This document shows positions 14,785 to 30,903 of a stretch of 64,000 bases of DNA, piece after piece. Within the stretch, counting starts at the first letter, position 1, and the number at the start of each line of letters is the position of its first letter. This DNA comes from Acidimicrobiales bacterium (GTDB taxonomy: Bacteria > Actinomycetota > Acidimicrobiia > Acidimicrobiales > MedAcidi-G1). The DNA lies in contig JASMLT010000002.1 of NCBI GenBank assembly GCA_030748555.1, positions 20,511 to 84,510 on the forward strand, given 5' to 3'. Made by a program: the position numbers and the translations under genes. A model generated the notes under the pieces. It searched no databases. It was not told the origin of the DNA and saw only the letters and a list, made by a program, of their open reading frames with translations.

Positions 14785-16089
14785 CTAAGGTCTAGTGCCG
14801 TCTAGATAATCATCTAAAACGTCGTGAAACCTCTGAACACGTCCTTCTTGCCCGGCAAGCCTCACTCCCCGATACCCGCGTGAAGCAAGTCCTAGTTGCT
14901 GCCCAGTGCTAATTGCCAAATCCTGATCGGCAATTTGTCGATTCATTAGCTCTGTTCCATATTTGAAAAATCTTCGTTCTTCTGGCTCAGTGACATCAAG
15001 ACGCGCAGCAGCCCCCTGCGACAAATACATAAAATTGTCGTAATAATGCCGTTCCGGATCACGACGGTGCGGCCGCATTCTTTGAAGCCCTATATATTCC
15101 GATCCGGCGAAGCTAATTGTGACATTAGGAAATATGTTGTAGTGATAAGCATCTGTTAGCTGATCGTCAAAAAGTTGATCAAATTGGTAGCCGTATTTAC
15201 TGCCAAGCTGTCTTTTGACCGCCTGGACCCTTTGACGGGTTTCAAATTCTCTTCCTTTAAATTCTTCCACCTTTAAACCCCACGGTTCTAACATCTCCCC
15301 TAGCTGCTCATCCACCTCGAGTTCTTCACCTGTGAGTGAGCGAGATGGCGTGACCATTGGTATAGACATTCGATTATGTCCTTCCTCACACCAGTCGAAA
15401 TGACAATACTTATAGCTATGTTCTATCCATTTCAGACCCTGAGGGTGAACTGCAGGTAGGTGGTAAGACTCACACGAATTATCTTGCGGCACCTTCCAAT
15501 TGCAATTGACATCGACTGTCGATGAAGGCCCGCGAATCCAATCATCGCTTTCATAAGCTTCGAATTCTTCCCAAACGGGACCAAGATACTCCCGTAAAGT
15601 CATGCATTCAGGATTCATATTTATCCAAATGAAACCAGCAAAAACTTCACAATTCACTTCCACCAAAGTCAAATCATCACAAGGATTTCCTTCAGGGAAA
15701 TCTTCAGGGTCTTGGACATATTCCAATGAACCGTCACCAGCCCACTCCCACCCGTGATATGGGCAAACTATTTTATCTGCAGCACCTTCTTTATTGAAAA
15801 TAAGACGAGAACCACGATGTTGACAGACATTATAAAAACACCTAATCGAACTATCTTCCTGCCGGATCATAATAAATGATTCAGGTCCAACTTCTTCCAC
15901 CTGATAAGAGCCTGGCTCTCGCATTTCCGAAGAACGACCCATTAGAAGCCACACTTGTGTCCACATAGACGACCATTCCCTGTCAAAGAAATCTCGCGAG
16001 GTGTACTGCTCTCCTAAAATAGGAACATTTCGAAGTGGCGGACATTCCCAAGGTCTAGCCAAAGCCATCACAGTTTCAGGAACACTCAT
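14785..16089 (-). CDS. Rieske non-heme iron oxygenase, alpha-subunit type
   Basis: Rieske CQHRGSRLIF...CPYHGWEW and mononuclear iron DNSCESYHLPAVHPQ. Confidence 0.92.
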   Translation of the reverse strand: MSVPETVMALARPWECPPLRNVPILGEQYTSRDFFDREWSSMWTQVWLLMGRSSEMREPGSYQVEEVGPESFIMIRQEDSSIRCFYNVCQHRGSRLIFNKEGAADKIVCPYHGWEWAGDGSLEYVQDPEDFPEGNPCDDLTLVEVNCEVFAGFIWINMNPECMTLREYLGPVWEEFEAYESDDWIRGPSSTVDVNCNWKVPQDNSCESYHLPAVHPQGLKWIEHSYKYCHFDWCEEGHNRMSIPMVTPSRSLTGEELEVDEQLGEMLEPWGLKVEEFKGREFETRQRVQAVKRQLGSKYGYQFDQLFDDQLTDAYHYNIFPNVTISFAGSEYIGLQRMRPHRRDPERHYYDNFMYLSQGAAARLDVTEPEERRFFKYGTELMNRQIADQDLAISTGQQLGLASRGYRGVRLAGQEGRVQRFHDVLDDYLDGTRP

Positions 16090-17831
16090 GGCAATTCTAA
16101 AATCCTCACCTCTCCTGATGTGCCGTCTATCTCTAAAATGGCACCATCAGGTATAAGTGTTGTGGCTTCGTTTACTGAGACCACGCACGGTATTCCTAAC
16201 TCTCTGCTGACTATCACGGCATGGCTGATTTGTGCCCCCACATTTACTATTACAGCCTCAACAGCTAAAAAAAGTGGAGTCCATGCTGGATCTGTTATTG
16301 GCGCAACCATAATGTCGCCAGGCAACAAATCAGGAGGGTTTGAGGGGTCTAGAACTATTCTTGCTCTCCCTTGGGTGCTCCCCGGAGATCCGGGAACTCC
16401 TGTCAAAACATCTCCAACGTTTAATGTAGACATTTTATCTTCCGAGGATTTTAGATCCCATTCGGAAAGACCCGGAACGACTCCATCCCTGATGAAAAAT
16501 GGTGGTTCCAAATCCCATAACGCTTTCCAGTCTTTATAGCGTTTCCCAAGTTTTTCAGTAAATGAACCTGGGTTTGCTATAAAAGCTTCTAACTCTTCAT
16601 CCAAAAGCATGAAAATTTCTTCATCTGAACCAAGTGTTCCCAATTCTCTATGACGTTTTCCTAATTCACGTATAGTCATACGGCTTTCATGAAGCGGTTT
16701 AACCAAAGTAGTTTTCGAACGCTCTCGAAAAACCATCATATTCGCTGCAACTATCGCCCCTTCAAAGGTTCCAGTCAGTTCATCGTTTGCGATTCCTTTC
16801 AATTTTTCCCTTACCTCTTCTATGAGGTTTTCTCTTTCCATGGCAAGACGCTCTGCTGCTATTTTTGGAGAACGATCATCATTTTGCGATCTAACTTGAT
16901 CTATAGCTCTTAAAGCTATTGTTGGTTCAGTTTCCCAAGTTTCACTGCTCAGCTCCCACTCATTCGCTCCACGTGAGCCATACTCGTATACGAACTCATT
17001 GAATGCTTCAAGAAAATCAGCCACTTCTTCGGAATCAGACTTATTAAGTTCATCCAACAGAGATTCAGGATGTGAGTTAAAAATTTCTGAAATGATTTGC
17101 GATTCTTTAACTGAGCGAGACATTTCCCATATTGCAAATGATGGAGCAGCAGAATCTATATCGCCGAGACTAGATAAAAGACGAACAGGAATACTTGGAT
17201 CCCCTATGGCTTCACCCACAGCCGCCAACATTCCAGGCGCAATACCAGATGATCCTGCTGAAACCATTTGGTTGCGTGAGAGATTTTCAATAAGTGGTTG
17301 GAGATCTCTCAGTCTTTCAAGCAACTCTTCATCACTTAGTGATTTCAGATCCGGTCTTTCTTTACGTTCTTTGTCGGCAAGTTTTCTCTCTTCATTAAGT
17401 TCCGGCCATTCAGAAGCACTAAGAACGAACTGCATATGAGAATCAGCTAGATGCTGTAAATGTGGTTTCTCATCTTCTGGATGAGGTTCATATTTCGGAG
17501 AATCTGGCTGGTCTCCAAAAATTGCAAGATCGAGCTGTTCAACTGTTATAGCTGGATTTCTTACTGCTTGCATACGTATACAAGAAAGATTTATGTAGAA
17601 ATAACCTCCAAAAAAACCGCACATTTCTGGCGGATCATCTCTGTATTCATCGAGTTCATAAAAACCTGTTTGAGTTGAACCTAATTGCCACCCCTTCATT
17701 ATGCAGTTGTCAAATCCGTAACTTTGACCAAAAGGACTTGCTGGCGTAGGAAGGACCTCACCTGCATTTGCTCGTGTGTAATGCGGCCAACGTTTACTTG
17801 GGGGGTGGTCAGTAAACCATTTTTCTTCCAT
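16086..17831 (-). CDS. PEP-utilising-enzyme phosphohistidine (swivelling) domain protein, lacking a recognisable ATP-grasp domain
   Basis: C-terminal GVPGSPGSTQGRARIVLDPSNPPDLLPGDIMVAPITDPAWTPLFLAVEAVIVNVGAQISHAVIVSRELGIPCVVSV; 4-nt overlap with downstream Rieske gene. Confidence 0.85.
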   Translation of the reverse strand: MEEKWFTDHPPSKRWPHYTRANAGEVLPTPASPFGQSYGFDNCIMKGWQLGSTQTGFYELDEYRDDPPEMCGFFGGYFYINLSCIRMQAVRNPAITVEQLDLAIFGDQPDSPKYEPHPEDEKPHLQHLADSHMQFVLSASEWPELNEERKLADKERKERPDLKSLSDEELLERLRDLQPLIENLSRNQMVSAGSSGIAPGMLAAVGEAIGDPSIPVRLLSSLGDIDSAAPSFAIWEMSRSVKESQIISEIFNSHPESLLDELNKSDSEEVADFLEAFNEFVYEYGSRGANEWELSSETWETEPTIALRAIDQVRSQNDDRSPKIAAERLAMERENLIEEVREKLKGIANDELTGTFEGAIVAANMMVFRERSKTTLVKPLHESRMTIRELGKRHRELGTLGSDEEIFMLLDEELEAFIANPGSFTEKLGKRYKDWKALWDLEPPFFIRDGVVPGLSEWDLKSSEDKMSTLNVGDVLTGVPGSPGSTQGRARIVLDPSNPPDLLPGDIMVAPITDPAWTPLFLAVEAVIVNVGAQISHAVIVSRELGIPCVVSVNEATTLIPDGAILEIDGTSGEVRILELP

Positions 17832-17857
17832 TTTTTCCTCTCTTTAAGATCTGAAAA

Positions 17858-19171
17858 TTACTCTATATAGCTATCTATGACGTCATGAAAGCGCCTGATT
17901 CTACTTTCCTGTTCAGATAAAAATCCGCCCCTATATCCTCTTGAACGCAGTCCAAGTTGTTGCATCACAGATACAGCTATGTCTTGGTCAGGTATTAGTC
18001 CCATCGACTGCTCTCCATATTGAATCACTTCTTGTAAATTGCTGGTATCCGTCAATTCAATATTTGTAGCTGAATCTGCGAGTTCTGTATTTTTCGTGTA
18101 ATACCAATGATCAAAAAAACACTTTTGAGGGTCTGATGGGTCTGGGCGCATGCGTTGCAGTAGAACGCCATCGGCGGAAAAAGTCAACGAACAATTTGGG
18201 AATAAGTTGTAGTGGTGAGAGTCAGTTAATTGAGCATCACGTAAATTTGCATAATGGGAATGCCCTCTGCTAACTCCCAGTTCTCTCATTTTTTCCTGCA
18301 GAGCTAGTCTCACCTCGAAGACACGGTCGGTGAAATCTGCTGGGTCCAATTCCCAATATTCCATTCGCTCAGCTAGAGAATTTGGAAGATCAGGGTTTGC
18401 TCCACGTAAAGTTCTTGAAGGCGTAGCTCCCATCATGATCATCCGATTGTGACCTTCAAGTGACATGTCGAATTGAGCGTATGCATAGTTCTCTTCATGT
18501 GAATCAGCAAGTTGAGGGTGAACTGTTGGCAGATGGTAAGACTCACAAAAGTTATCCTGCACGACTTTCCAATTGCAAGGAACTGTGGTGGATATTTTTA
18601 GCACCCGAGACCAATCATCAATTTCATATGCTGACCATTCATCCCATAAAGGTCCTAAAAAGTCTTTAAGTGATTGACAATCCGGATCCAAATTAATCCA
18701 GATGAAACCAGCAAAAATTTCGCAGGGAACTTCCATTAAAGTCAGTTCTTCACAAGGGTTGCCTTGAAGAAAGTCTTCGGGATCCTGTACCGATAGAAGA
18801 GTTCCATCAAATGACCATTCCCAACTGTGGTAAGGACATCTAAACACTTCGGTGGTTCCCTTTGTATTATTGGTTAGACGTGAACCTCTGTGTTGACAAA
18901 CGTTATAGAAGGCTCGGACCGATCCGTCTTCTTGACGTACCATGATGATCGATTCAACTCCTATTTCTTCAATCTGGTAATCACCTTTAAAAGGTATTTC
19001 ACTAACTCGTCCAAGAAGTAACCAAACTTTGGTCCACATTTGGTTCCACTCTTTTTCATAAAACTCTGGAGATGTATACCTGAAACCCTCTAGCGCCAAT
19101 TTTGAGACTTTCGGGTTTTCCCAGCCAGGAGCCAAATCATTAGGTGTATTTTTGTTTTTAGCAATCCTCAT
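17858..19171 (-). CDS. Rieske non-heme iron oxygenase, alpha-subunit type (paralog)
   Basis: CQHRGSRLTNN...CPYHSWEW; DNFCESYHLPTVHPQ. Confidence 0.92.
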   Translation of the reverse strand: MRIAKNKNTPNDLAPGWENPKVSKLALEGFRYTSPEFYEKEWNQMWTKVWLLLGRVSEIPFKGDYQIEEIGVESIIMVRQEDGSVRAFYNVCQHRGSRLTNNTKGTTEVFRCPYHSWEWSFDGTLLSVQDPEDFLQGNPCEELTLMEVPCEIFAGFIWINLDPDCQSLKDFLGPLWDEWSAYEIDDWSRVLKISTTVPCNWKVVQDNFCESYHLPTVHPQLADSHEENYAYAQFDMSLEGHNRMIMMGATPSRTLRGANPDLPNSLAERMEYWELDPADFTDRVFEVRLALQEKMRELGVSRGHSHYANLRDAQLTDSHHYNLFPNCSLTFSADGVLLQRMRPDPSDPQKCFFDHWYYTKNTELADSATNIELTDTSNLQEVIQYGEQSMGLIPDQDIAVSVMQQLGLRSRGYRGGFLSEQESRIRRFHDVIDSYIE

Positions 19172-20716: not shown

Positions 20717-21799
20717 ATGGACTCAAAGCGCTGTCTTCTTGTTTTATTTGGTGGTCGTAGCGCTGAACACGATGTCTCGTGTGTGTCAGCCCGTCATGTG
20801 ATTGAAGCCGCTGACCCTGAACACTATGAAGTCATACCGGTGGGTATAGACAAGAACGGAGATTGGCATCTTGCTGAAAAAGCTATTGAGGATCTTAAAA
20901 GTAACGAACTCCAAGAAAGGCTAGAACCGGCTGGTCCGGTGTGGAATCCCATAGTCGAGTTGCGGAAACTAAGTTCTGAGAAAAACCTTATTGTTTTCCC
21001 GCTGTTGCATGGCCCACTAGGTGAAGATGGGACTATCCAAGGACTGCTCGAAGTAATAGATGTGCCGTACATAGGTAGTGGAGTTTTAGGTTCCGCTTTA
21101 GCTATGGATAAAATCGCCACAAAAGAAATCCTGACCCATCACAACATTCCACAAGCGCTTTATCGAAGTGTGCACTCCAAACTATTTGAAGATTTAGATA
21201 ACGAAGGCATGCAATCAATGCTTTCTAGATTATTTAATGAACTCGGGCCAGTAGTTTTTGTCAAGCCCGCAAATTTAGGTTCATCAATAGGAGTCTCTAG
21301 AGCCAGCGACCTTGATTCATTAAAAAAAGCTCTCGAAAAAGCTTTCGCTTATGACGAATGGGTGATTGTCGAAGAAGCCATAGAAGGAAGAGAGATTGAG
21401 CTATCAGTTCTAGGTGATCTAGTTCCTCAAGTCTCACCCCCAGGTGAGATAAAACCTATGGGTGATTTTTATGATTACGCTGAGAAATATCAAAATGACA
21501 GTGCTGAATTGATTGACGAACCGGATATTGAGGCACACCTAGTCGTAAACCTGCAACAAATAGCAGCCCGAGTTTTTTTAGCATTGCGTTGCTCTGGAAT
21601 GGCAAGAGTAGATTTTTTCCTTCATCCTGAAAGGGGTCCAATACTCAACGAAGTTAATACCATTCCAGGTTTTACACCTATATCTATGTACCCGAGGCTC
21701 TGGCAAAACGCTGGACTTTCTTACTCAGGACTGGTGGATCGTCTTGCAGATATCGCAATGGAAAGGTTTTCACGAAAGCGTCGCAACACCGTCATTTAG
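20717..21799 (+). CDS. ddl: D-alanine--D-alanine ligase
   Basis: LFGGRSAEHDVSCVSA, FPLLHGPLGEDGTIQGLLE, FVKPANLGSSIGVSRA, NEVNTIPGFTPISMYPRLW motifs. Confidence 0.95.
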   Translation: MDSKRCLLVLFGGRSAEHDVSCVSARHVIEAADPEHYEVIPVGIDKNGDWHLAEKAIEDLKSNELQERLEPAGPVWNPIVELRKLSSEKNLIVFPLLHGPLGEDGTIQGLLEVIDVPYIGSGVLGSALAMDKIATKEILTHHNIPQALYRSVHSKLFEDLDNEGMQSMLSRLFNELGPVVFVKPANLGSSIGVSRASDLDSLKKALEKAFAYDEWVIVEEAIEGREIELSVLGDLVPQVSPPGEIKPMGDFYDYAEKYQNDSAELIDEPDIEAHLVVNLQQIAARVFLALRCSGMARVDFFLHPERGPILNEVNTIPGFTPISMYPRLWQNAGLSYSGLVDRLADIAMERFSRKRRNTVI

Positions 21800-22409
21800 A
21801 CTGCATGTAATCAGGGTCTAAAGAAACTCTTAAGAATCTAATCAGTTCACGCCGTCTTACCGTCACAGGGCGTAACGCTTGTTCGATGCCGGCTGCTCTC
21901 AACACTTCGATTTCTGTTGCTAATCCCACAACAGTAGAGTAGGCACTTAAAATAACCAGCCTTGGATCAGTTCGGCGCATTCTTCCAACTTCCATCTCCG
22001 ATTGCATCCAAAAAGTTGCTCTGTCCATAAGTGGAGTCATCAGTATTCTTAGTCTTTCTGAACCAGCAGACCCTGGTCTGCTTACCTCTCTCAAAAGACC
22101 GAGCAGTAGTGGTTCGCGTAGAGCAAGTCGAAAAATCATCCTTGCTAAGGCTTCAATTCTTTCCCATCCTTTTAAGTCACTATTTAGAACTTCCTCAATT
22201 GAATTGATCAGATTCCCTGCCTCCCTCTCAACTACTGCATTTAATAAACCTTTTTTGGTTGTGAAGTGATAAAGGATGGTTTGCTTTCTTACTCCTAAAG
22301 ACTTTGCGACTACGTCAAGCGAAGTAGCATCGAAGCCCGATGTACTGAAGGATTCCAGCGCAGCATCAAGAATTTTTCCTTTTGTTCCAAATTTTTCGTA
22401 CTTTTCCAT
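21792..22409 (-). CDS. TetR/AcrR family transcriptional regulator
   Basis: ILDAALESFSTSGFDATSLDVVAKSLGVRKQTILYHFTTKKGLLNAVVE is a TetR HTH. Confidence 0.92.
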   Translation of the reverse strand: MEKYEKFGTKGKILDAALESFSTSGFDATSLDVVAKSLGVRKQTILYHFTTKKGLLNAVVEREAGNLINSIEEVLNSDLKGWERIEALARMIFRLALREPLLLGLLREVSRPGSAGSERLRILMTPLMDRATFWMQSEMEVGRMRRTDPRLVILSAYSTVVGLATEIEVLRAAGIEQALRPVTVRRRELIRFLRVSLDPDYMQSK

Positions 22410-22428: not shown

Positions 22429-22465
22429 CTTACCGTTTGGTAAGTTTAACTTACCAATTGGTAAA
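22429..22465. promoter_or_regulatory. Tandem TetR-type operators in the divergent promoter
   Basis: CTTACC-GTTT-GGTAAG (22429-22444) and CTTACC-AATT-GGTAAA (22450-22465); centres exactly 21 bp apart; perfect nested palindromes TTGGTAAGTT-T-AACTTACCAA (22437-22457) and TTACCAATTGGTAA (22451-22464). Confidence 0.8.
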
Positions 22466-22470
22466 TAATA

Positions 22471-24792
22471 ATGATGATAAAGCAAAATTTATCCGGAAAA
22501 CGGATAGCTATTACCGGAGCAACGGGCTTTCTAGGTACTGCACTAGTCGAACGCTTGCTTAGCTCTATACCGGACTGCGAACTTCTTCTACTCGTGCGCC
22601 CAGGCAGAAGAGGTGCAGAAAAGCGAGCAGAAAGAGAAATCCTTCGTAACGACGCGTTTAACAACCTTCGTGAAAAACTAGGAACCGATGGTTTTGACAA
22701 ATTATGCAAAAAAAGAGTTAAAGCAATATCAGGAGATGTGGGCATAGACGGCCTAGGGCTCGATGAAGATGGATTAACCGAACTGGCCAAATGTGACTTG
22801 TTTATTCATTCCGCTGCGGTAGTTAGTTTTGATTCACCTTTGGATCAAGCAGTTGAAGTCAATCTCCTTGGGCCAGTTCGTATCGCTCAAATTCTAAACG
22901 AGCTCGCTCTTTCACCTCATCTTATTTCCATATCCACTTGTTATGTGGCGGGAAGCAGAAGAGGAGCCGCACCAGAAGAACCTGTAGATGCTAGTCCATT
23001 CTTTGTTGATGTTGATTGGAGAATTGAAGTCGACGCGGCGAGAAGAATACGGCAAGAAACGGAAACTGCTAGTCGTACGCCTGAACGTCTGGAAGAGTTT
23101 CGCAAAGAAGCCCGCGAAGAGCTAGGAGCTGCCGGTATTCCTGCGCTCGCATCAAAAACTGAACAATTACGTTCACGTTGGGTTGATGACCGAATGGCAG
23201 AAGCAGGTCGTTCGCGGGCACATTCTCTGGGATTTCCAGATGCCTATGCGTACACGAAGGCATTAGGTGAAATTGCGCTCAGCGAAACAGCTCACACCAT
23301 CCCAGTAAGTATTGTCAGGCCTTCAATTATTGAATCTGCCCTAGCCCAACCCTTTCCGGGCTGGATCAGAGGTTTCCGAATGGCCGAACCTGTCATTATT
23401 TCTTACGCAAGAGGACTATTGAAAGATTTTCCCGGAATCCCTGAAGGGACGATCGACGTCATACCTGTGGATCTGGTCACAGCTGCCATTTGTGCAGTTG
23501 CCGCAAGAGGCCCTGTTGAACAACCAGACATTGTTCAAATTGCATCAGGCAGTATCAACCCTCTCAGATACGGACACCTCTTTGATCTGGTTCGCGCATG
23601 GTTTACACTGCATCCTGTATACGACGAGATAGGTCAACCAATTGCAGTGCCAGGTTGGGATTTTCCCGGCATAAGTAAAGTCAGAAAGCAACTTGAAAGA
23701 GGTCAAACCCTTTTAAACAAAACACAAAAAGCTTTTGACCAACTACCCATTAGAGGCTCTAGGGCTGACGTGATTGCAAAACTCGAAGAACAACGTGATC
23801 AGATAGAAAAAGCTTTAGGTTACGTTGACCTGTATGGAGCTTACGTCGAATGTCAAGCTATCTATGGTCTTGAAAGCCTGTTGGAGCTTTGGGATTCTTT
23901 AGACGAAGAAGATAAAAACGATTTCTGTTTTGACCCTGAAATAATCGATTGGAATCAGTACGCGAACGAAATTCACCTACCCTCAGTAGTCAAAGCGGGC
24001 AGGGTTCCTATGAGTCCCCCTTCGAAAAAAGGACAAGACAGAGAAACACGTTTAAGAAGTCAGATTCTTTCGCCGGACCGCCACATCGCTGCTTTTGATT
24101 TAGAAAATACCCTTATTGCTTCAAACGTGGTCTCTTCTTTTGCGTGGCTTGCAAGCAGACGACTAAATACGACCGACCGCATTCGTCTAGTAGTAAAAAC
24201 ATTGGCAGAAGTACCCGGATTGCTTTCTTTGGACAAACAAGACCGAGGTGATTTCTTACGTCATTTCTACAGGCGCTATGAAGGGGCTCCGGTCTCTCAA
24301 ATTTCTGAAGATTCCGCTGAACAATTTAGCGACCTTATACTTTCAAAATCCTTTCCTGAAGGTATCCGCAGAGTTAGGGAACACAGAAATTTAGGACATA
24401 AAACTGTTCTAATAACTGGTGCTTTAGATTTCATAGTTGAACCACTCAAACCTCTTTTTGATGACATAATCTGCCCAAAACTCGGACGAGATGGCGACTC
24501 TTACGATGGTCGACTAGTAGACGTGCCACCTACAGGAGAATCCAGATACCAAGCTTTAGCTGACTACGCAGCAGCCAATCAACTCGACTTGCGCGAATCA
24601 GTCGCTTACGCTGATTCTGCCAGCGACCTCCCCATGCTAGAAGCAGTTGGGTTTCCAGTCGCCGTTAACCCAGAGGTTCGCCTAGCTAGTATCGCTAGAA
24701 AACGCGGGTGGCTTGTTGAAGATTTCGGCAAATCACCTGGTGTCAGCAATAAAATTTTACCTTTAGCCCCCCATAGAGGTGGTAGGACATGA
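22471..24792 (+). CDS. Fusion: N-terminal fatty acyl-CoA reductase-like (NAD-binding_4/SDR) plus C-terminal HAD-IB phosphatase-like domain
   Basis: ITGATGFLGTALVERLL, FIHSAAVVSF, YAYTKALGE, SIVRPSIIESA; C-terminal IAAFDLENTLIASNVVSSF, VLITGALDFIVEPL, ESVAYADSASDLPMLEAVGFPVAVNPE. Confidence 0.88.
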   Translation: MMIKQNLSGKRIAITGATGFLGTALVERLLSSIPDCELLLLVRPGRRGAEKRAEREILRNDAFNNLREKLGTDGFDKLCKKRVKAISGDVGIDGLGLDEDGLTELAKCDLFIHSAAVVSFDSPLDQAVEVNLLGPVRIAQILNELALSPHLISISTCYVAGSRRGAAPEEPVDASPFFVDVDWRIEVDAARRIRQETETASRTPERLEEFRKEAREELGAAGIPALASKTEQLRSRWVDDRMAEAGRSRAHSLGFPDAYAYTKALGEIALSETAHTIPVSIVRPSIIESALAQPFPGWIRGFRMAEPVIISYARGLLKDFPGIPEGTIDVIPVDLVTAAICAVAARGPVEQPDIVQIASGSINPLRYGHLFDLVRAWFTLHPVYDEIGQPIAVPGWDFPGISKVRKQLERGQTLLNKTQKAFDQLPIRGSRADVIAKLEEQRDQIEKALGYVDLYGAYVECQAIYGLESLLELWDSLDEEDKNDFCFDPEIIDWNQYANEIHLPSVVKAGRVPMSPPSKKGQDRETRLRSQILSPDRHIAAFDLENTLIASNVVSSFAWLASRRLNTTDRIRLVVKTLAEVPGLLSLDKQDRGDFLRHFYRRYEGAPVSQISEDSAEQFSDLILSKSFPEGIRRVREHRNLGHKTVLITGALDFIVEPLKPLFDDIICPKLGRDGDSYDGRLVDVPPTGESRYQALADYAAANQLDLRESVAYADSASDLPMLEAVGFPVAVNPEVRLASIARKRGWLVEDFGKSPGVSNKILPLAPHRGGRT

Positions 24793-26009
24793 AGGCGCTT
24801 AGATTCAAAAGAAACATTCCGCGTTATGCGGCTGCCAAGATTGCCGGAAATATAATGCCTGGTTCTGGAGCAAGTTTTGGGCCTATAGATCTAATTCAGG
24901 AGGAAAGCCCTGAAATACCCGGAAAAGATTGGGTAAAAGTCCGACCAAGACTTTCAGGAATCTGTGGTTCAGATCTAGCAACAGTAGACGGCAAATCAGC
25001 TCGATATTTTGAACCTCTTGTTTCCTTCCCTTTCACACCTGGACATGAGGTGGTCGGCAATCTTGACGACGACACTCGTGTCGTGCTTGAACCAGTTCTG
25101 AGCTGTGCAAGTCGAAACATTTCGCCACCCTGCACTCCTTGCGGTGAGGGAAACATAGGAAACTGTGAAAATGTGACTCTTGGTGAAATATCTTCTGGAA
25201 TTCAAACCGGTTCATGTCATGACACAGGGGGAGGTTGGGCCACTGAATTTTATGCTCATCCCAGCCAATTGCATTCTGTGCCAGATGAATTCTCTGATGA
25301 AGCAGCAGTAATGGTTGAACCAACCGCATGCGGAGTACATGCCGCTCTAGCAGCAGAACTCCCAAACGACGGAGTGGTTGCAATATTAGGAAGTGGAACT
25401 CTGGGACAAGTAACAATCTCGGCGCTACGACATTTCACAAACCCAAAAACGATTATCTCAACTGCACGCTACCCAGAGCAAAAGAGAGTAGCCGCCCAAC
25501 TGGGATCTGACATTGTTGTAAACCCTGAAGAAATCCATCGTGCAGTTAGGAGAGCTTGTGGGACAAAAGCAATCGCAAATGTTTCAGAAAAGAGCCCCGA
25601 CGGGCGTGTGGACCGTCTAACCGGTGGTGCAGATGTTGTAATCGACTGTGTCGGATCTTCAAAAAGCATCAGTGACGCTTTGTCAATAACAAAGCCAAAT
25701 GGAAGAATTGTCCTTGTTGGAATGCCTGCGACAGTCGAACTGGAACTAACCCCCCTTTGGCATCGCGAATTGCAATTAGTAGGTGCTTACACCTATGGAA
25801 CCGAAAAACTTCCTGATGGGGAAGCAACAAGCACTTTTGACCTTGCCTTTGAACTAGTGAAAACCGCAAAACTTGAGGAACTTGTCTCAGCTTGCTACCC
25901 ACTTGATGATTACCAAGAAGCCCTGAAACATGCTGCCAACGCAGGTGCAAGAGGGGCCTTCAAGATTGTTTTTGATCTTAGAGACGAACGGGAGCGAAAT
26001 ATCAAATGA
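24789..26009 (+). CDS. Zinc-dependent alcohol dehydrogenase (MDR, threonine-dehydrogenase-like)
   Basis: GICGSDLATVDG, TPGHEVVGNL, CTPCGEGNIGNCEN, VAILGSGTLGQVTISAL. Confidence 0.9.
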   Translation: MKALRFKRNIPRYAAAKIAGNIMPGSGASFGPIDLIQEESPEIPGKDWVKVRPRLSGICGSDLATVDGKSARYFEPLVSFPFTPGHEVVGNLDDDTRVVLEPVLSCASRNISPPCTPCGEGNIGNCENVTLGEISSGIQTGSCHDTGGGWATEFYAHPSQLHSVPDEFSDEAAVMVEPTACGVHAALAAELPNDGVVAILGSGTLGQVTISALRHFTNPKTIISTARYPEQKRVAAQLGSDIVVNPEEIHRAVRRACGTKAIANVSEKSPDGRVDRLTGGADVVIDCVGSSKSISDALSITKPNGRIVLVGMPATVELELTPLWHRELQLVGAYTYGTEKLPDGEATSTFDLAFELVKTAKLEELVSACYPLDDYQEALKHAANAGARGAFKIVFDLRDERERNIK

Positions 26010-27634
26010 ATAACGACAATAAAGAAACCTCACGCCCTTCCCCTAGACCAGGGTTCGTGTTGGATGTGGATAGAAACACTCCACCCATTGTTTTCCATCA
26101 CGGGGAGAACTTTCGGTTAGAGAAACTTCCTGCTGGAAGATCACGGGTTGTGTATCCGTCTGAACCGCTAGAAGGACTTCAAGATCCAGAAGGTGCGATA
26201 AAGAACGCCCTTTTGAACCCACTCGGCGATTCAGATCCACTTCCCTCTCTTCTTAAACCGGGAATGAAACTAACGATTGCTTTTGACGATATTTCACTAC
26301 CCCTTCCCCCTATGCGTAAGCCTGATATAAGACAGCGCATAATAGAAGCTGTACTCGACATGGCAGCAGAAGCAGGTGTAGACGATGTGCACCTCATTGC
26401 TGCTCTTGCTTTACACAGAAGAATGACTGAAGATGAGCTTCGTCACGCAGTGGGAGATCGGGTCTATGATTCCTTTGCTCCGAGAGGATTGCTGTACAAC
26501 CTTGATGCGGAAGACCCAGAAGGAATGGTCGTGCTTGGTGAGACCCCTCACGGGGAAGAAGTCCATTTCTGCCGCAGAGCTGCAGAAAGCGACCTGCTCA
26601 TATATGTGAATATAAATCTAGTTTCCATGGACGGAGGACATAAAAGCACAGCAACTGGACTAGCTGGATACACAGGCCTGCGTCACCACCACAACGTTCA
26701 CACTCTAAGAAATTCAAAATCGATAATGGACAGAGAAAATTCTGCCCTACATGCCTCAAATTGGCGCATGGGAGACGTAATAAAAGATGCAGGGGTGAAA
26801 ATTTTTCAAATAGAAACGACTGTAAACAACAATACTTTCGGACGGGAAGGCCCTCTCGCCCTTCTTCAAAAACGCGAATGGGAGTGGAATACCAGAGACA
26901 GGGGCCAGTTCATAGCCATGCAGCGCGGTTTAGATCTATTACCGGTTAAAGCGAAAAGACGTATTTTCGGAGGGTGGCAGTCACCCTATGAGTTGACTTC
27001 AGTCCAGGCGGGTGAAGTCGAGGCTGTGCATCAGAAAACTATTGAAAATGTATATGCCCAGCAACTCGTAACCGTTGAAGGCCAGACTGACATACTTACG
27101 ATGGGTCTCCCCTACATCTGTCCATACAACGTGAATTCAATAATGAACCCCATTCTGGTGATGTGTCTTGGGCTTGGGTATTTCTTTAATCTCTACAAAG
27201 GGAAGCCTTTGGTTCGCGAAGGTGGAGTTCTCATAATGAGCCACCCAACACCTTGGGAGTTCCACCCTGTTCATCATCCTAGTTACATTGATTTTTTCGA
27301 ACAGGTCCTAACCGAAACTACCGATCCAATTGAAATTGAAAAAAGATACGAGAAGCAATTTGCAGAAGATGAATGGTACATCCATCTTTATCGAAACTCT
27401 TACGCTTACCACGGAGTTCATCCGCTTTACATGTGGTATTGGGGTAGTCACGCAATGCAACATCTAGGAAGAATCATTATCGTTGGCGGTGACCAGAAAG
27501 CTGTTCGTCGTTTAGGTTTCCAATCTGCATCGACCCTTCAAGATGCACTCGAAATAGCTTCAGATGTCGTGGGTTCTCAACCAACCATCACACATCTAAA
27601 AACCCCACCACTCGTCATGGCGGATGTGATCTAA
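26006..27634 (+). CDS. LarA-like (lactate racemase / DUF2088) family protein
   Basis: IAFDDISLPLPPMRKPDIRQRIIEAVLDMAAEAGVDDVHLIAALALHRRMTEDELRHAVGDRV resembles the LarA N-terminal domain; SMDGGHKS resembles the Lys-bearing region. Confidence 0.7.
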   Translation: MNNDNKETSRPSPRPGFVLDVDRNTPPIVFHHGENFRLEKLPAGRSRVVYPSEPLEGLQDPEGAIKNALLNPLGDSDPLPSLLKPGMKLTIAFDDISLPLPPMRKPDIRQRIIEAVLDMAAEAGVDDVHLIAALALHRRMTEDELRHAVGDRVYDSFAPRGLLYNLDAEDPEGMVVLGETPHGEEVHFCRRAAESDLLIYVNINLVSMDGGHKSTATGLAGYTGLRHHHNVHTLRNSKSIMDRENSALHASNWRMGDVIKDAGVKIFQIETTVNNNTFGREGPLALLQKREWEWNTRDRGQFIAMQRGLDLLPVKAKRRIFGGWQSPYELTSVQAGEVEAVHQKTIENVYAQQLVTVEGQTDILTMGLPYICPYNVNSIMNPILVMCLGLGYFFNLYKGKPLVREGGVLIMSHPTPWEFHPVHHPSYIDFFEQVLTETTDPIEIEKRYEKQFAEDEWYIHLYRNSYAYHGVHPLYMWYWGSHAMQHLGRIIIVGGDQKAVRRLGFQSASTLQDALEIASDVVGSQPTITHLKTPPLVMADVI

Positions 27635-27636
27635 AA

Positions 27637-28566
27637 ATGAAATCCGTTTATTCCATTACCAATGATTTTAAGAATAAATTTTTAAGACTTGGTTTCCCAT
27701 GGGTTCCAGCTTCAACTCCTGCAGGCGTTGATTCAAGAGTGAAAAATAATTCCCTTGGCGCTAGTTATGACACCGACTGGGCACGTCGACCTGCTGCTCG
27801 CTTAGCTAGAGCGGTCATTGTGGAAACTTTAATGAGACCCGTGATGTCTTTTCTAGCTACACCTACACGCAAAGGCCTAGATCGCCTCGAAAACCTTGAA
27901 GGGCCGGCAATATTTGCTGCCAACCACCAAAGTCATGCTGATACTCCTCTACTGATTACTTCTATTCCTGAACCATGGAGACATGAACTTGTAATTGGTG
28001 CTGCTGCTGATTATTTCTTCAATACGAAAGCAACCAGCGCAATTTCAGCATTAGCCATCGGAGCAGTCCCTATAGATCGAACCAAAGTTAGCAGACAGTC
28101 TGGTGACATGATTTCAGAGTTGATAGGGGAAGGATGGAGTCTGCTGATATACCCCGAGGGGGGGCGCAGTCCTGACGGATGGGGCCAACCTTTCAGAGGA
28201 GGCGCTGCCTACCTCGCTATCCGGTGCGGCGTGCCAGTTGTACCAATACATATTTCCGGAACAGGGAAAATTCTTCGAAAAGGAAGAAATCTGCCAAGAC
28301 GCTCTAAAAGTACAGTAACTTTTGGATGCCCAATGGACGCCGAAAGTGATGAAAACGCTAGATCTTTCAGTGCCAGAATTGAAAAAGAAGTTAGAAGTCT
28401 TGCAGATGAAACAGCCTCCAGCTGGTGGGACGCTAGGCAGCGATCCTACAAAAATTCCTCACCGTCTCTTACTGGGCCTGAAATCGGAGCTTGGAGAAGA
28501 TCGTGGGCATTAAGTGACAATGATGGAAAAACGAGAAAACGTCGACGTCGTTGGCCTGCGATCTAG
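27637..28566 (+). CDS. 1-acylglycerol-3-phosphate acyltransferase (PlsC) family
   Basis: AANHQSHADTPLLI (NHxxxxD) and LLIYPEGGRSPDG motifs. Confidence 0.9.
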   Translation: MKSVYSITNDFKNKFLRLGFPWVPASTPAGVDSRVKNNSLGASYDTDWARRPAARLARAVIVETLMRPVMSFLATPTRKGLDRLENLEGPAIFAANHQSHADTPLLITSIPEPWRHELVIGAAADYFFNTKATSAISALAIGAVPIDRTKVSRQSGDMISELIGEGWSLLIYPEGGRSPDGWGQPFRGGAAYLAIRCGVPVVPIHISGTGKILRKGRNLPRRSKSTVTFGCPMDAESDENARSFSARIEKEVRSLADETASSWWDARQRSYKNSSPSLTGPEIGAWRRSWALSDNDGKTRKRRRRWPAI

Positions 28567-28623: not shown

Positions 28624-30903
28624 ATGACCGTTCAATCCCAGACTCCAACAGAACTCGTTAAGAACGTTTACGCAAATCTTGAAAGTCGTCTATCTGCCGG
28701 CAGAGAGGCTTTAGGTAGACCTTTGACCTTGGCAGAAAAAATACTGATCAACCACTTAAAGGATCCAAATTCCACGGAGATGAACCGCGGGGTCTCATAT
28801 GTTGATCTCCATCCTGACCGAGTTGCAATGCAAGATGCCACTGCCCAAATGGCTTGGCTGCAATTTATGACCGCTGGTCTTCAAGAAGTGCAGGTTCCTA
28901 CAACCACTCATTGTGATCATTTGATTCAAGCTCGCATAGATGCCGAAACTGATCTTAGCGTTGCAGTCGATAACAATTCCGAAGTGTATGACTTTCTCGA
29001 ATCAGTTTGCGCCAAGTACGGAGCAGGTTTCTGGAAACCCGGGTCTGGCATAATTCATCAAGTCATTCTCGAACAATATGCCTTTCCAGGCGGGATGATG
29101 ATCGGCACCGATAGCCATACCCCAAATGCTGGAGGTCTGGGAATGATCGCTATCGGTGTTGGAGGAGCTGACGCTGTCGATGTCATGACCGGATTTCCGT
29201 TCAATATCAAGTGGCCTAAATTAATCGGCGTCAACTTGACAGGAGAGTTGAGCGGATGGGCATCGCCTAAAGATGTAATCCTAAAGGTTGCAGAAATTCT
29301 CACTGTTAAAGGTGGCACTGGTGCAATAGTCGAATACCTCGGACCTGGAGCAAGAACGCTTTCGGCAACAGGTAAGGGAACAATCTGCAACATGGGTGCA
29401 GAAATTGGTGCTACTACTTCTCTTTTCCCTTACGACGAAGCCATCTCTCGTTACCTAAATGCAACTAACCGTGGGGAGACTGCTGAAGCAGCTGACTCTG
29501 TTAGTAGTGATTTGCAAGCCGATCCAGAGGTTGAAAAAGATCCTCACAGCTTCTTTGACCGTGTTATTGAAATAAACCTTTCCGATCTGACACCTCATAT
29601 CAATGGCCCTCATACGCCTGATTTGGCTAGACCTGTTGGTAATCTCGGAGAAGAGGCGACCGCGAATGGTTGGCCCCTCGAGGTAAGCGCCGGCTTAATT
29701 GGGTCATGCACCAATTCAAGTTATGAAGACATAACACGAGCCGCTGGAATAGCACGAGACGCTCTTTCTAAAGGATTGAAATCGAAAATACCTCTTCTAG
29801 TTACCCCCGGCTCAGAACAAGTTCGAGCTACGATTGAAAGAGATGGCCTTCTTGCTGACCTTGAAGCTATAGGAGCTACAGTTCTTGCAAACGCTTGCGG
29901 CCCATGCATAGGTCAATGGGACCGACAAGACCTTGATGAAGGTATGCCTAATAGTATTGTTACTAGCTATAACCGTAACTTTCCAAAAAGAAATGACGGA
30001 TATGCTTCTACATTTGCTTTTGTAACTTCACCTGAAACTGTTGTTGCCTTGAGCATCGCAGGAAAGCTCGACTTTGATCCTGCAGTTGATTCATTAACCT
30101 CAGAAAACGGTGAAGAAGTGAAACTTTCTGTGGATATCGGAGAGGAACTTCCAACTAAAGGTTTCGATCCAGGAGAAGAAGGCTTGTTTAAACCTCCCCC
30201 ATCTGAAAATTCTGAAATTGAGATTTCCATACCTCCGGAAAGCGAAAGACTTCAAGTTCTCACTCCTTTCGCCCCCTGGGATGGAAATGACTTTGAAAAT
30301 TTGCCCGTTCTGATGAAAGCAAAGGGAAAATGCACTACTGATCACATTTCGATGGCGGGATCTTGGTTGAAATACCGAGGACATCTAGAAAATATTTCCG
30401 GGAACCTCTATTTAGGAGTGGTCAACTCGTTCACTGGAGAAGTCGGAACTGGGATAGACATCACAGACAATGAGATAAGACCTTTTCCTGAAATAGCAAA
30501 GCGTTACCACGAAGCAGGAATTGAGTGGGTTGCAATTGGCGATGAAAATATAGGTGAAGGATCCTCTAGAGAACATGCCGCTATGGAGCCAAGATTCAGG
30601 GGATGTCGTGTAGTAATAGCTCGCTCATTTGCTCGAATCCACGAGACCAACTTGAAGAAACAAGGGGTACTGCCATTGACTTTTGCCAATCCTGCTGACT
30701 ATGACTTAATAGGACAGGAAGACAAAATTTCAGTAATCGCCCTTAAAGACCTGAGCGCAAATAAACCTGTACAAGTGACAGTCACCAATTCTGAAGGTGT
30801 CAGAACCAATATAGAAACGAACCACTCAATGTCAGAAGATCAGATCGAATGGTTCAAGGCAGGAAGTGCCCTTAATTTAATACGCCAAAAAACCAACGGT
30901 TAG
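28624..30903 (+). CDS. Aconitate hydratase, mitochondrial-like type (759 aa)
   Basis: RVAMQDATAQMAWLQFMTAGLQEVQVPTTTHCDHLIQA, GTDSHTPNAGGLGMIAIGVGGADAVDVM, GSCTNSSYEDI, GEGSSREHAAMEPR. Confidence 0.93.
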   Translation: MTVQSQTPTELVKNVYANLESRLSAGREALGRPLTLAEKILINHLKDPNSTEMNRGVSYVDLHPDRVAMQDATAQMAWLQFMTAGLQEVQVPTTTHCDHLIQARIDAETDLSVAVDNNSEVYDFLESVCAKYGAGFWKPGSGIIHQVILEQYAFPGGMMIGTDSHTPNAGGLGMIAIGVGGADAVDVMTGFPFNIKWPKLIGVNLTGELSGWASPKDVILKVAEILTVKGGTGAIVEYLGPGARTLSATGKGTICNMGAEIGATTSLFPYDEAISRYLNATNRGETAEAADSVSSDLQADPEVEKDPHSFFDRVIEINLSDLTPHINGPHTPDLARPVGNLGEEATANGWPLEVSAGLIGSCTNSSYEDITRAAGIARDALSKGLKSKIPLLVTPGSEQVRATIERDGLLADLEAIGATVLANACGPCIGQWDRQDLDEGMPNSIVTSYNRNFPKRNDGYASTFAFVTSPETVVALSIAGKLDFDPAVDSLTSENGEEVKLSVDIGEELPTKGFDPGEEGLFKPPPSENSEIEISIPPESERLQVLTPFAPWDGNDFENLPVLMKAKGKCTTDHISMAGSWLKYRGHLENISGNLYLGVVNSFTGEVGTGIDITDNEIRPFPEIAKRYHEAGIEWVAIGDENIGEGSSREHAAMEPRFRGCRVVIARSFARIHETNLKKQGVLPLTFANPADYDLIGQEDKISVIALKDLSANKPVQVTVTNSEGVRTNIETNHSMSEDQIEWFKAGSALNLIRQKTNG

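Follow-up and report, generated by a model that had tools for sequence, protein, structure and literature searches.

The operon and its promoter

The window (the whole 64-kb stretch of DNA that we analysed) comes from the draft genome of a marine member of Acidimicrobiia, 1.35 Mb in size and about 70% complete. Judged by its LarA protein, the nearest named relatives of this genome are Acidimicrobiaceae SP49 (98%), MedAcidi-G1 (96%), and AG-414-N20 (96%). The locus contains these features:

21792..22409, - strand: TetR-family regulator, divergent (TetR_N PF00440, 51.5 bits)
22430..22443: operator-like palindrome 1, TTACCGTTTGGTAA, with one mismatch to TTACCANNTGGTAA
22451..22464: operator-like palindrome 2, TTACCAATTGGTAA, 21 nt from site 1 and ending 6 nt 5' of the FAR start codon
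22471..24792, + strand: FAR-HAD fusion of 773 amino acids (NAD_binding_4 at amino acids 14-340, 182 bits; HAD-IB phosphatase-like domain)
24088..24642, + strand: HAD domain of the fusion, amino acids 540-724, motif DLENT (PF12710, 84.7 bits; TIGR01490, 105 bits with a cut-off of 98.3)
24789..26009, + strand: Zn-dependent medium-chain alcohol dehydrogenase (ADH), polyol/threonine dehydrogenase type (domain matches)
26006..27634, + strand: LarA-like enzyme, LarAH14/15/16 (Lar_N, 122 bits)
27637..28566, + strand: PlsC-type acyltransferase (PF01553, 74.8 bits)
28624-30903: aconitase, starting 57 nt 3' of PlsC; a common neighbor of the operon in the order

The genes for FAR-HAD, ADH, LarA, and PlsC overlap by 4 nt at two junctions and are separated by 2 nt at the third. 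A sequence-only reading had described them as a four-gene unit that is divergent from TetR, and we recovered the same open reading frames, overlaps, and strands. Because the active-site residues of all four proteins are conserved (see below), these are genes under selection and not chance open reading frames. We did not count the aconitase gene as part of the system. Elsewhere in the window, at 14785-19171, two open reading frames whose translations resemble Rieske-type oxygenases lie on either side of one whose translation has a PEP-utilising-like C terminus.

The divergent promoter between TetR and FAR is 61 nt long and holds both palindromes. The operator-like motif has three matches in the window (0.1 were expected). 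Across related loci, we compared the regions between TetR and FAR (67 distinct sequences that add up to 4,984 bp) with the remaining 1.13 Mb of the same loci. TACCANNTGGTA was present exactly in 51 of the 67 regions, or in 57 if one mismatch was allowed, and there were just 4 exact sites in the background. Sites that were not flanked by both genes were mostly FAR promoters for which TetR was off the contig or unmapped, and one site falls within the PlsC gene of a single genome. Copies of TACCANNTGGTA are often in tandem, about 20-24 nt apart. A scan for consensus promoters and terminators gave a signal no higher than background.

The divergent position of TetR is kept in most loci of the order. 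Its matches among NCBIfam models were weak and included the fatty-acid regulators PsrA, FasR, and FadR as well as unrelated TetRs. The lipid-like inducer suggested in the sequence-only reading is a guess. We found no copy of the operator motif at larC loci or at ADH genes that lie outside the operon. As the motif lies between TetR and FAR and is missing from those other loci, TetR looks like a dedicated, local repressor of the operon. The earlier proposal of a TetR-controlled unit of FAR-HAD, ADH, LarA, and PlsC therefore holds up: the domains were confirmed, and the shared promoter contains operator-like palindromes.

Conservation and gene partners

LarA was present in 35 of 40 relatives, and in 25 of 26 among the most complete ones. 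When we compared gene neighborhoods with tblastn, loci from the order had the arrangement TetR / FAR-HAD / ADH / LarA / PlsC next to a MurF-Ddl block that is itself conserved and, in many cases, next to aconitase. Among the best 80 named loci from Acidimicrobiia, FAR was beside LarA in 78 and PlsC was present in 78. The four exceptions all lie at the ends of contigs (L132 and L176 for FAR; L146 and L147 for PlsC). The same core was found in families from other parts of the phylum. The sequence-only reading hinged on these genes being conserved together in relatives, and the neighborhoods of the best 80 loci do keep the core.

To quantify co-occurrence, we used 397 genomes from the phylum that were at least 90% complete, excluding the source genome itself. 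LarAH14/15/16 was found in 79 of these and FAR-HAD in 82. All 79 genomes with LarA also had FAR-HAD, which left three genomes with FAR-HAD only (Fisher's exact test, value of 1.6e-80, with shared ancestry ignored). Furthermore, 14 genomes from the order lacked LarA, and all of them lacked FAR-HAD as well; these represent at least four genus-level groups in three families. Because the Fisher value ignores shared ancestry, this co-loss is the better argument. At the level of gene content, LarA's partnership with FAR-HAD is obligate. We did not find a description of this tight link in the literature that we searched.

The link belongs to the LarAH14/15/16 subgroup, because a second subgroup of LarA (about 41% identity and about 530 bits, which is under the LarAH14/15/16 cut-off) occurs in 11 genomes without FAR-HAD. 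Members of the second subgroup lie at L104:5938-7455 and L105:8131-9696, and HAD-like and SDR-like open reading frames are found near the L104 copy.

ADH was linked to the operon in just 27 of the best 80 named loci from Acidimicrobiia, and it is absent from the operon at L055, L101, and L121-L124. This might suggest that it is dispensable. Instead, in 13 of 13 tested genomes with an unlinked ADH, we found a single strong ortholog elsewhere (E = 1e-155 to 1e-168), so ADH is retained. Its catalytic residues C59, H86, and E87 are invariant. The nearest NCBIfam models describe polyol and threonine dehydrogenases, and all of these matches were far under the cut-offs.

The PlsC protein has the expected features of the PlsC/AGPAT family: the motifs NHxxxxD and EGxR are intact and invariant. 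Family f45 has FAR-HAD, ADH, and LarA with no adjoining PlsC. In all four of the f45 loci examined, PlsY (glycerol-3-phosphate acyltransferase) lies immediately 5' of FAR. Thus, an acyltransferase of glycerolipid synthesis adjoins FAR in both arrangements. We considered whether the f45 genes between ADH and LarA might be lipid genes, and rejected this, as they encode protoglobin, MarR, GAF, and MOSC proteins.

These partners bear on whether the operon could be catabolic, i.e., whether it degrades an imported alkyl or polyol lipid that is sensed by TetR. Regulation by a TetR would fit, and in principle ADH and the reductase could each work in either direction, but the PlsC and PlsY partners indicate synthesis and FARs run in the alcohol direction. 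Also, the operon is kept almost throughout the order, including in small marine genomes, which would be unusual for a catabolic accessory. We consider a catabolic role to be quite improbable.

Active sites of the LarA-like enzyme and the FAR-HAD fusion

The LarA-like protein belongs, by sequence, to NCBIfam NF052592 (a full-length match of 889.9 bits, with a cut-off of 740). This family is named "NPN-dependent hydroxyacid isomerase LarAH14/15/16"; the function in that name is a prediction. The residue counts given here are from 154 LarA sequences, a set in which some genomes are represented twice. H137, K213, and H229 are present in all 154, and the positions of the cofactor-linking Lys184 and the nickel ligand His200 are kept. 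Classical LarA relies on two catalytic histidines (H108 and H174). The first is kept, as H137, while the H174 loop has asparagines: N202 in 154 of 154 sequences and N204 in 153. In a profile alignment, N204 lies opposite H174 of the LarA from L. plantarum, with a loop that is one residue short and an ambiguous exact register. The position of Arg75, which in the classical mechanism contacts the substrate's carboxylate and the cofactor's phosphate, aligns to L98 (Leu in 146 sequences, Ile in 7, and Cys in 1).

The closest solved proteins in the profile alignment are LarAs with a single catalytic histidine, from Blautia wexlerae and Streptococcus plurextorum (9q3j and 9q2u/9q3k). The AF2 model of the operon's LarA also has 9q3k and 9q3j as its nearest folds (TM scores of 0.71-0.76 relative to the query). 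Like the operon's protein, the single-histidine LarAs have an Asn where the second His would be and keep the cofactor Lys and the nickel His; their authors report that they do not racemise lactate (PMC12611868). The operon's LarA is only 20-23% identical to them, its loop is one residue shorter, and in the profile alignment it has Pro373 instead of His306 and Leu98 instead of Lys76. The genomic context differs as well: sugar metabolism for the single-histidine LarAs (PMC12611868) and lipid for the operon's LarA.

Because Asn replaces His174 and Leu replaces Arg75, we rejected a classical 2-hydroxyacid racemase as the default assignment. The sequence-only reading had suggested racemisation or epimerisation of a 2-hydroxyacid. 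This part of it fared poorly: besides the two substitutions, a group-14 member from Frankia (LarAH14) had none of the seven activities that were assayed (PMC7583248), and simple racemisation by the operon's LarA is disfavoured. These observations also bear on a route to 2-hydroxyacyl lipids or long-chain diols, in which LarA would fix the configuration of a 2-hydroxy fatty acid or make it usable, FAR would convert it to a 1,2-diol, and PlsC would acylate the diol. Members of the LarA family act on 2-hydroxyacids (PMC7583248, PMC11770544), and FAR and PlsC would be the right enzymes for making a diol ester. However, the second His and the carboxylate-binding Arg are replaced in essentially all of the 154 sequences (some of them redundant), the Frankia protein was inactive in those assays, the operon has no 2-hydroxylase, and a literature search on diols gave nothing useful. 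We view this route as improbable.

Does the LarA-like protein use the nickel-pincer cofactor at all? The sequence-only reading had proposed looking for larC elsewhere in the genome. larC (PF01969) does occur in relatives from the order, in 29 of 32 genomes with LarA as compared to 0 of 14 genomes without it, but there was no match in the roughly 70% complete source draft. LarA without a larC match was seen in three genomes from the order (95-98% complete) and in seven genomes from the phylum in all; conversely, 146 genomes from the phylum have larC without a LarA of the operon's type. Because both kinds of mismatch exist, the larC pattern supports, and does not prove, dependence on the nickel-pincer cofactor. 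G275, G292, and G417 are near-complete genomes from the order that have LarA and FAR-HAD and no larC match.

If the protein were not a nickel-pincer enzyme and had some other role, the three LarA-containing genomes of the order without larC would make sense, as would the judgment of Desguin et al. that the group 16 residues are not conserved (PMC7583248). We think this is very unlikely, as the cofactor lysine (Lys213) and the nickel-ligand histidine (His229) are invariant, larC tracks LarA in the order, and LarA_Sp, a relative, was demonstrated to bind the cofactor (PMC12611868).

As for the FAR-HAD fusion, its first part has the NAD_binding_4 domain, the catalytic YxxxK motif, and the FAR fold. 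There is also a weak match to Sterile at amino acids 446-501. In the AF2 model of the fusion (mean pLDDT of 86), the best structural match to the FAR part is a fatty acyl-ACP reductase from rice, DPW (7eoz; TM score of 0.81 relative to the target), at about 28% identity over about 530 columns. The reductase domains of CAR/NRPS proteins came next, at 15-18%. From this best structural match, FAR-HAD is predicted to be a fatty acyl reductase. The operon's FAR shares YxxxK with DPW and other FARs and is unlike them in having a HAD domain fused at its C terminus.

Across 114 FAR-HAD sequences, S155, Y259 and K263 (of YxxxK), D543, R692, D715, and D719 are invariant. The DxD motif of the HAD domain is DxE in 106 of these sequences and DxD in the other 8: the second Asp is replaced by Glu across most of the order, while most other families have DxD. 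This substitution may indicate altered phosphatase or phosphotransferase chemistry.

Candidate products of the operon

Taking a lipid pathway to be the best reading, as was proposed earlier, is supported by the match of the FAR fold to a fatty acyl-ACP reductase and by PlsY occupying the acyltransferase's place in f45. Like the earlier reading, we could not assign the operon to a described pathway. In the literature, we found nothing decisive on a DUF2088/acyltransferase operon or on Acidimicrobiia ether lipids or diols, and no lipid data on these organisms.

Among characterised systems, the elb ether-lipid operon of Myxococcus xanthus likewise brings together FAR, HAD, and AGPAT-like acyltransferase functions: ElbB is a HAD protein and ElbD has FAR, ACS, ACP, and acyltransferase parts (PMC9131029). 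In contrast to elb, the operon studied here lacks an acyl-CoA synthetase, an ACP domain, and an ElbE-type protein; it has LarA and Zn-ADH instead, and its domains are fused differently.

We recognised no ether-bond-forming enzyme within the operon. The source draft (about 70% complete) had only GlcD/GlcE-like matches and no alkyl-DHAP synthase. HGD-D (PF06050) of the anaerobic PlsA/Ger ether-lipid pathway was not found in 10 genomes, including the source. A strong AGPS-like homolog was present in 14 of 40 relatives and in none from the same genus, so we rejected the idea that the system requires an ether pathway based on AGPS. These 14 genomes, in some of which the gene is near the operon, are compatible with an ether link. 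AGPS-like FAD proteins lie about 3-11 kb from the operon in three genomes (L047:14261-15889, L027:17381-18952, and L217), and at L027, an open reading frame that resembles the N terminus of WS/DGAT starts beside the AGPS-like gene.

One genome from f45 (G079), which may be Rubrobacter xylanophilus DSM 9941, has the operon's FAR as its sole strong match to PF07993. (The extra PF07993 matches in G050 and G213 are adenylation-carrier-reductase proteins, judging by their sequences.) None of the three FAD-oxidase_C proteins of G079 is an alkyl-DHAP synthase, and no HGD-D protein was found in this genome. Rubrobacterales have mixed ether/ester membrane lipids, according to the title of a study cited in PMC11150832. 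If G079 is indeed Rubrobacter and Rubrobacterales do have such lipids, then an ether lipid would be a natural candidate for the product in a genome that lacks the known ether-forming enzymes. We regard this as a lead.

Gene order, a conserved operator, the LarA/FAR-HAD partnership, co-occurrence with larC, and intact catalytic motifs can be read directly from the genomes; beyond that, the operon's product is probably an unusual lipid for the membrane or for storage. Our preferred explanation, to which we give about an even chance, is that the TetR-regulated operon makes a glycerolipid derived from a fatty alcohol, with a nickel-pincer enzyme assisting in the synthesis. The FAR domain would use NADPH to turn acyl-ACP or acyl-CoA into a fatty alcohol. 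LarA, with its nickel-pincer cofactor, would transiently abstract a hydride at a secondary alcohol on an intermediate of the polyol or glycerol type and, because a single catalytic His remains, would return it without inversion. The polyol-type ADH would act on the matching ketone or alcohol, the HAD domain would remove or transfer a phosphate, and PlsC (or PlsY in f45) would place an acyl chain on a glycerophosphate-type hydroxyl. The resulting membrane or storage lipid would bear a fatty alcohol; an alkyl-ether glycerolipid is one example.

In a more specific version, LarA would replace alkyl-DHAP synthase and its reductase and give 1-O-alkyl-glycerophosphate. LarA would transiently oxidise the C2 carbinol of acyl-glycerophosphate to a ketone, the fatty alcohol from FAR would swap with the acyl group, and the hydride would be returned with retention. 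This version is a long shot.

A different kind of lipid operon is possible but unlikely: FAR could provide the alcohol for wax esters, PlsC and HAD could feed triacylglycerol, WS/DGAT enzymes encoded elsewhere could finish both, and LarA could be an accessory. Triacylglycerol synthesis does include PlsC and phosphatase steps. Several WS/DGAT genes are present in Acidimicrobiia (PMC10351704). However, the operon has no WS/DGAT gene, and a storage-lipid role would leave the retention of LarA and the polyol-type ADH with FAR unexplained.

All four protein families were already known; the new part is their obligate combination. The operon is real, strongly conserved, and locally regulated, and it is built around a FAR and an orphan nickel-pincer-type enzyme. 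The orphan nickel-pincer group thereby gains a strict genomic partner, the FAR, and hence a concrete substrate class. The operon points to an uncharacterised lipid in actinobacteria that are widespread and for the most part uncultured; it may also point to a new route to ether or fatty-alcohol lipids. If LarA does stand in for alkyl-DHAP synthase, this would be a further redox-neutral route to bacterial ether lipids and a new chemistry for nickel-pincer enzymes.
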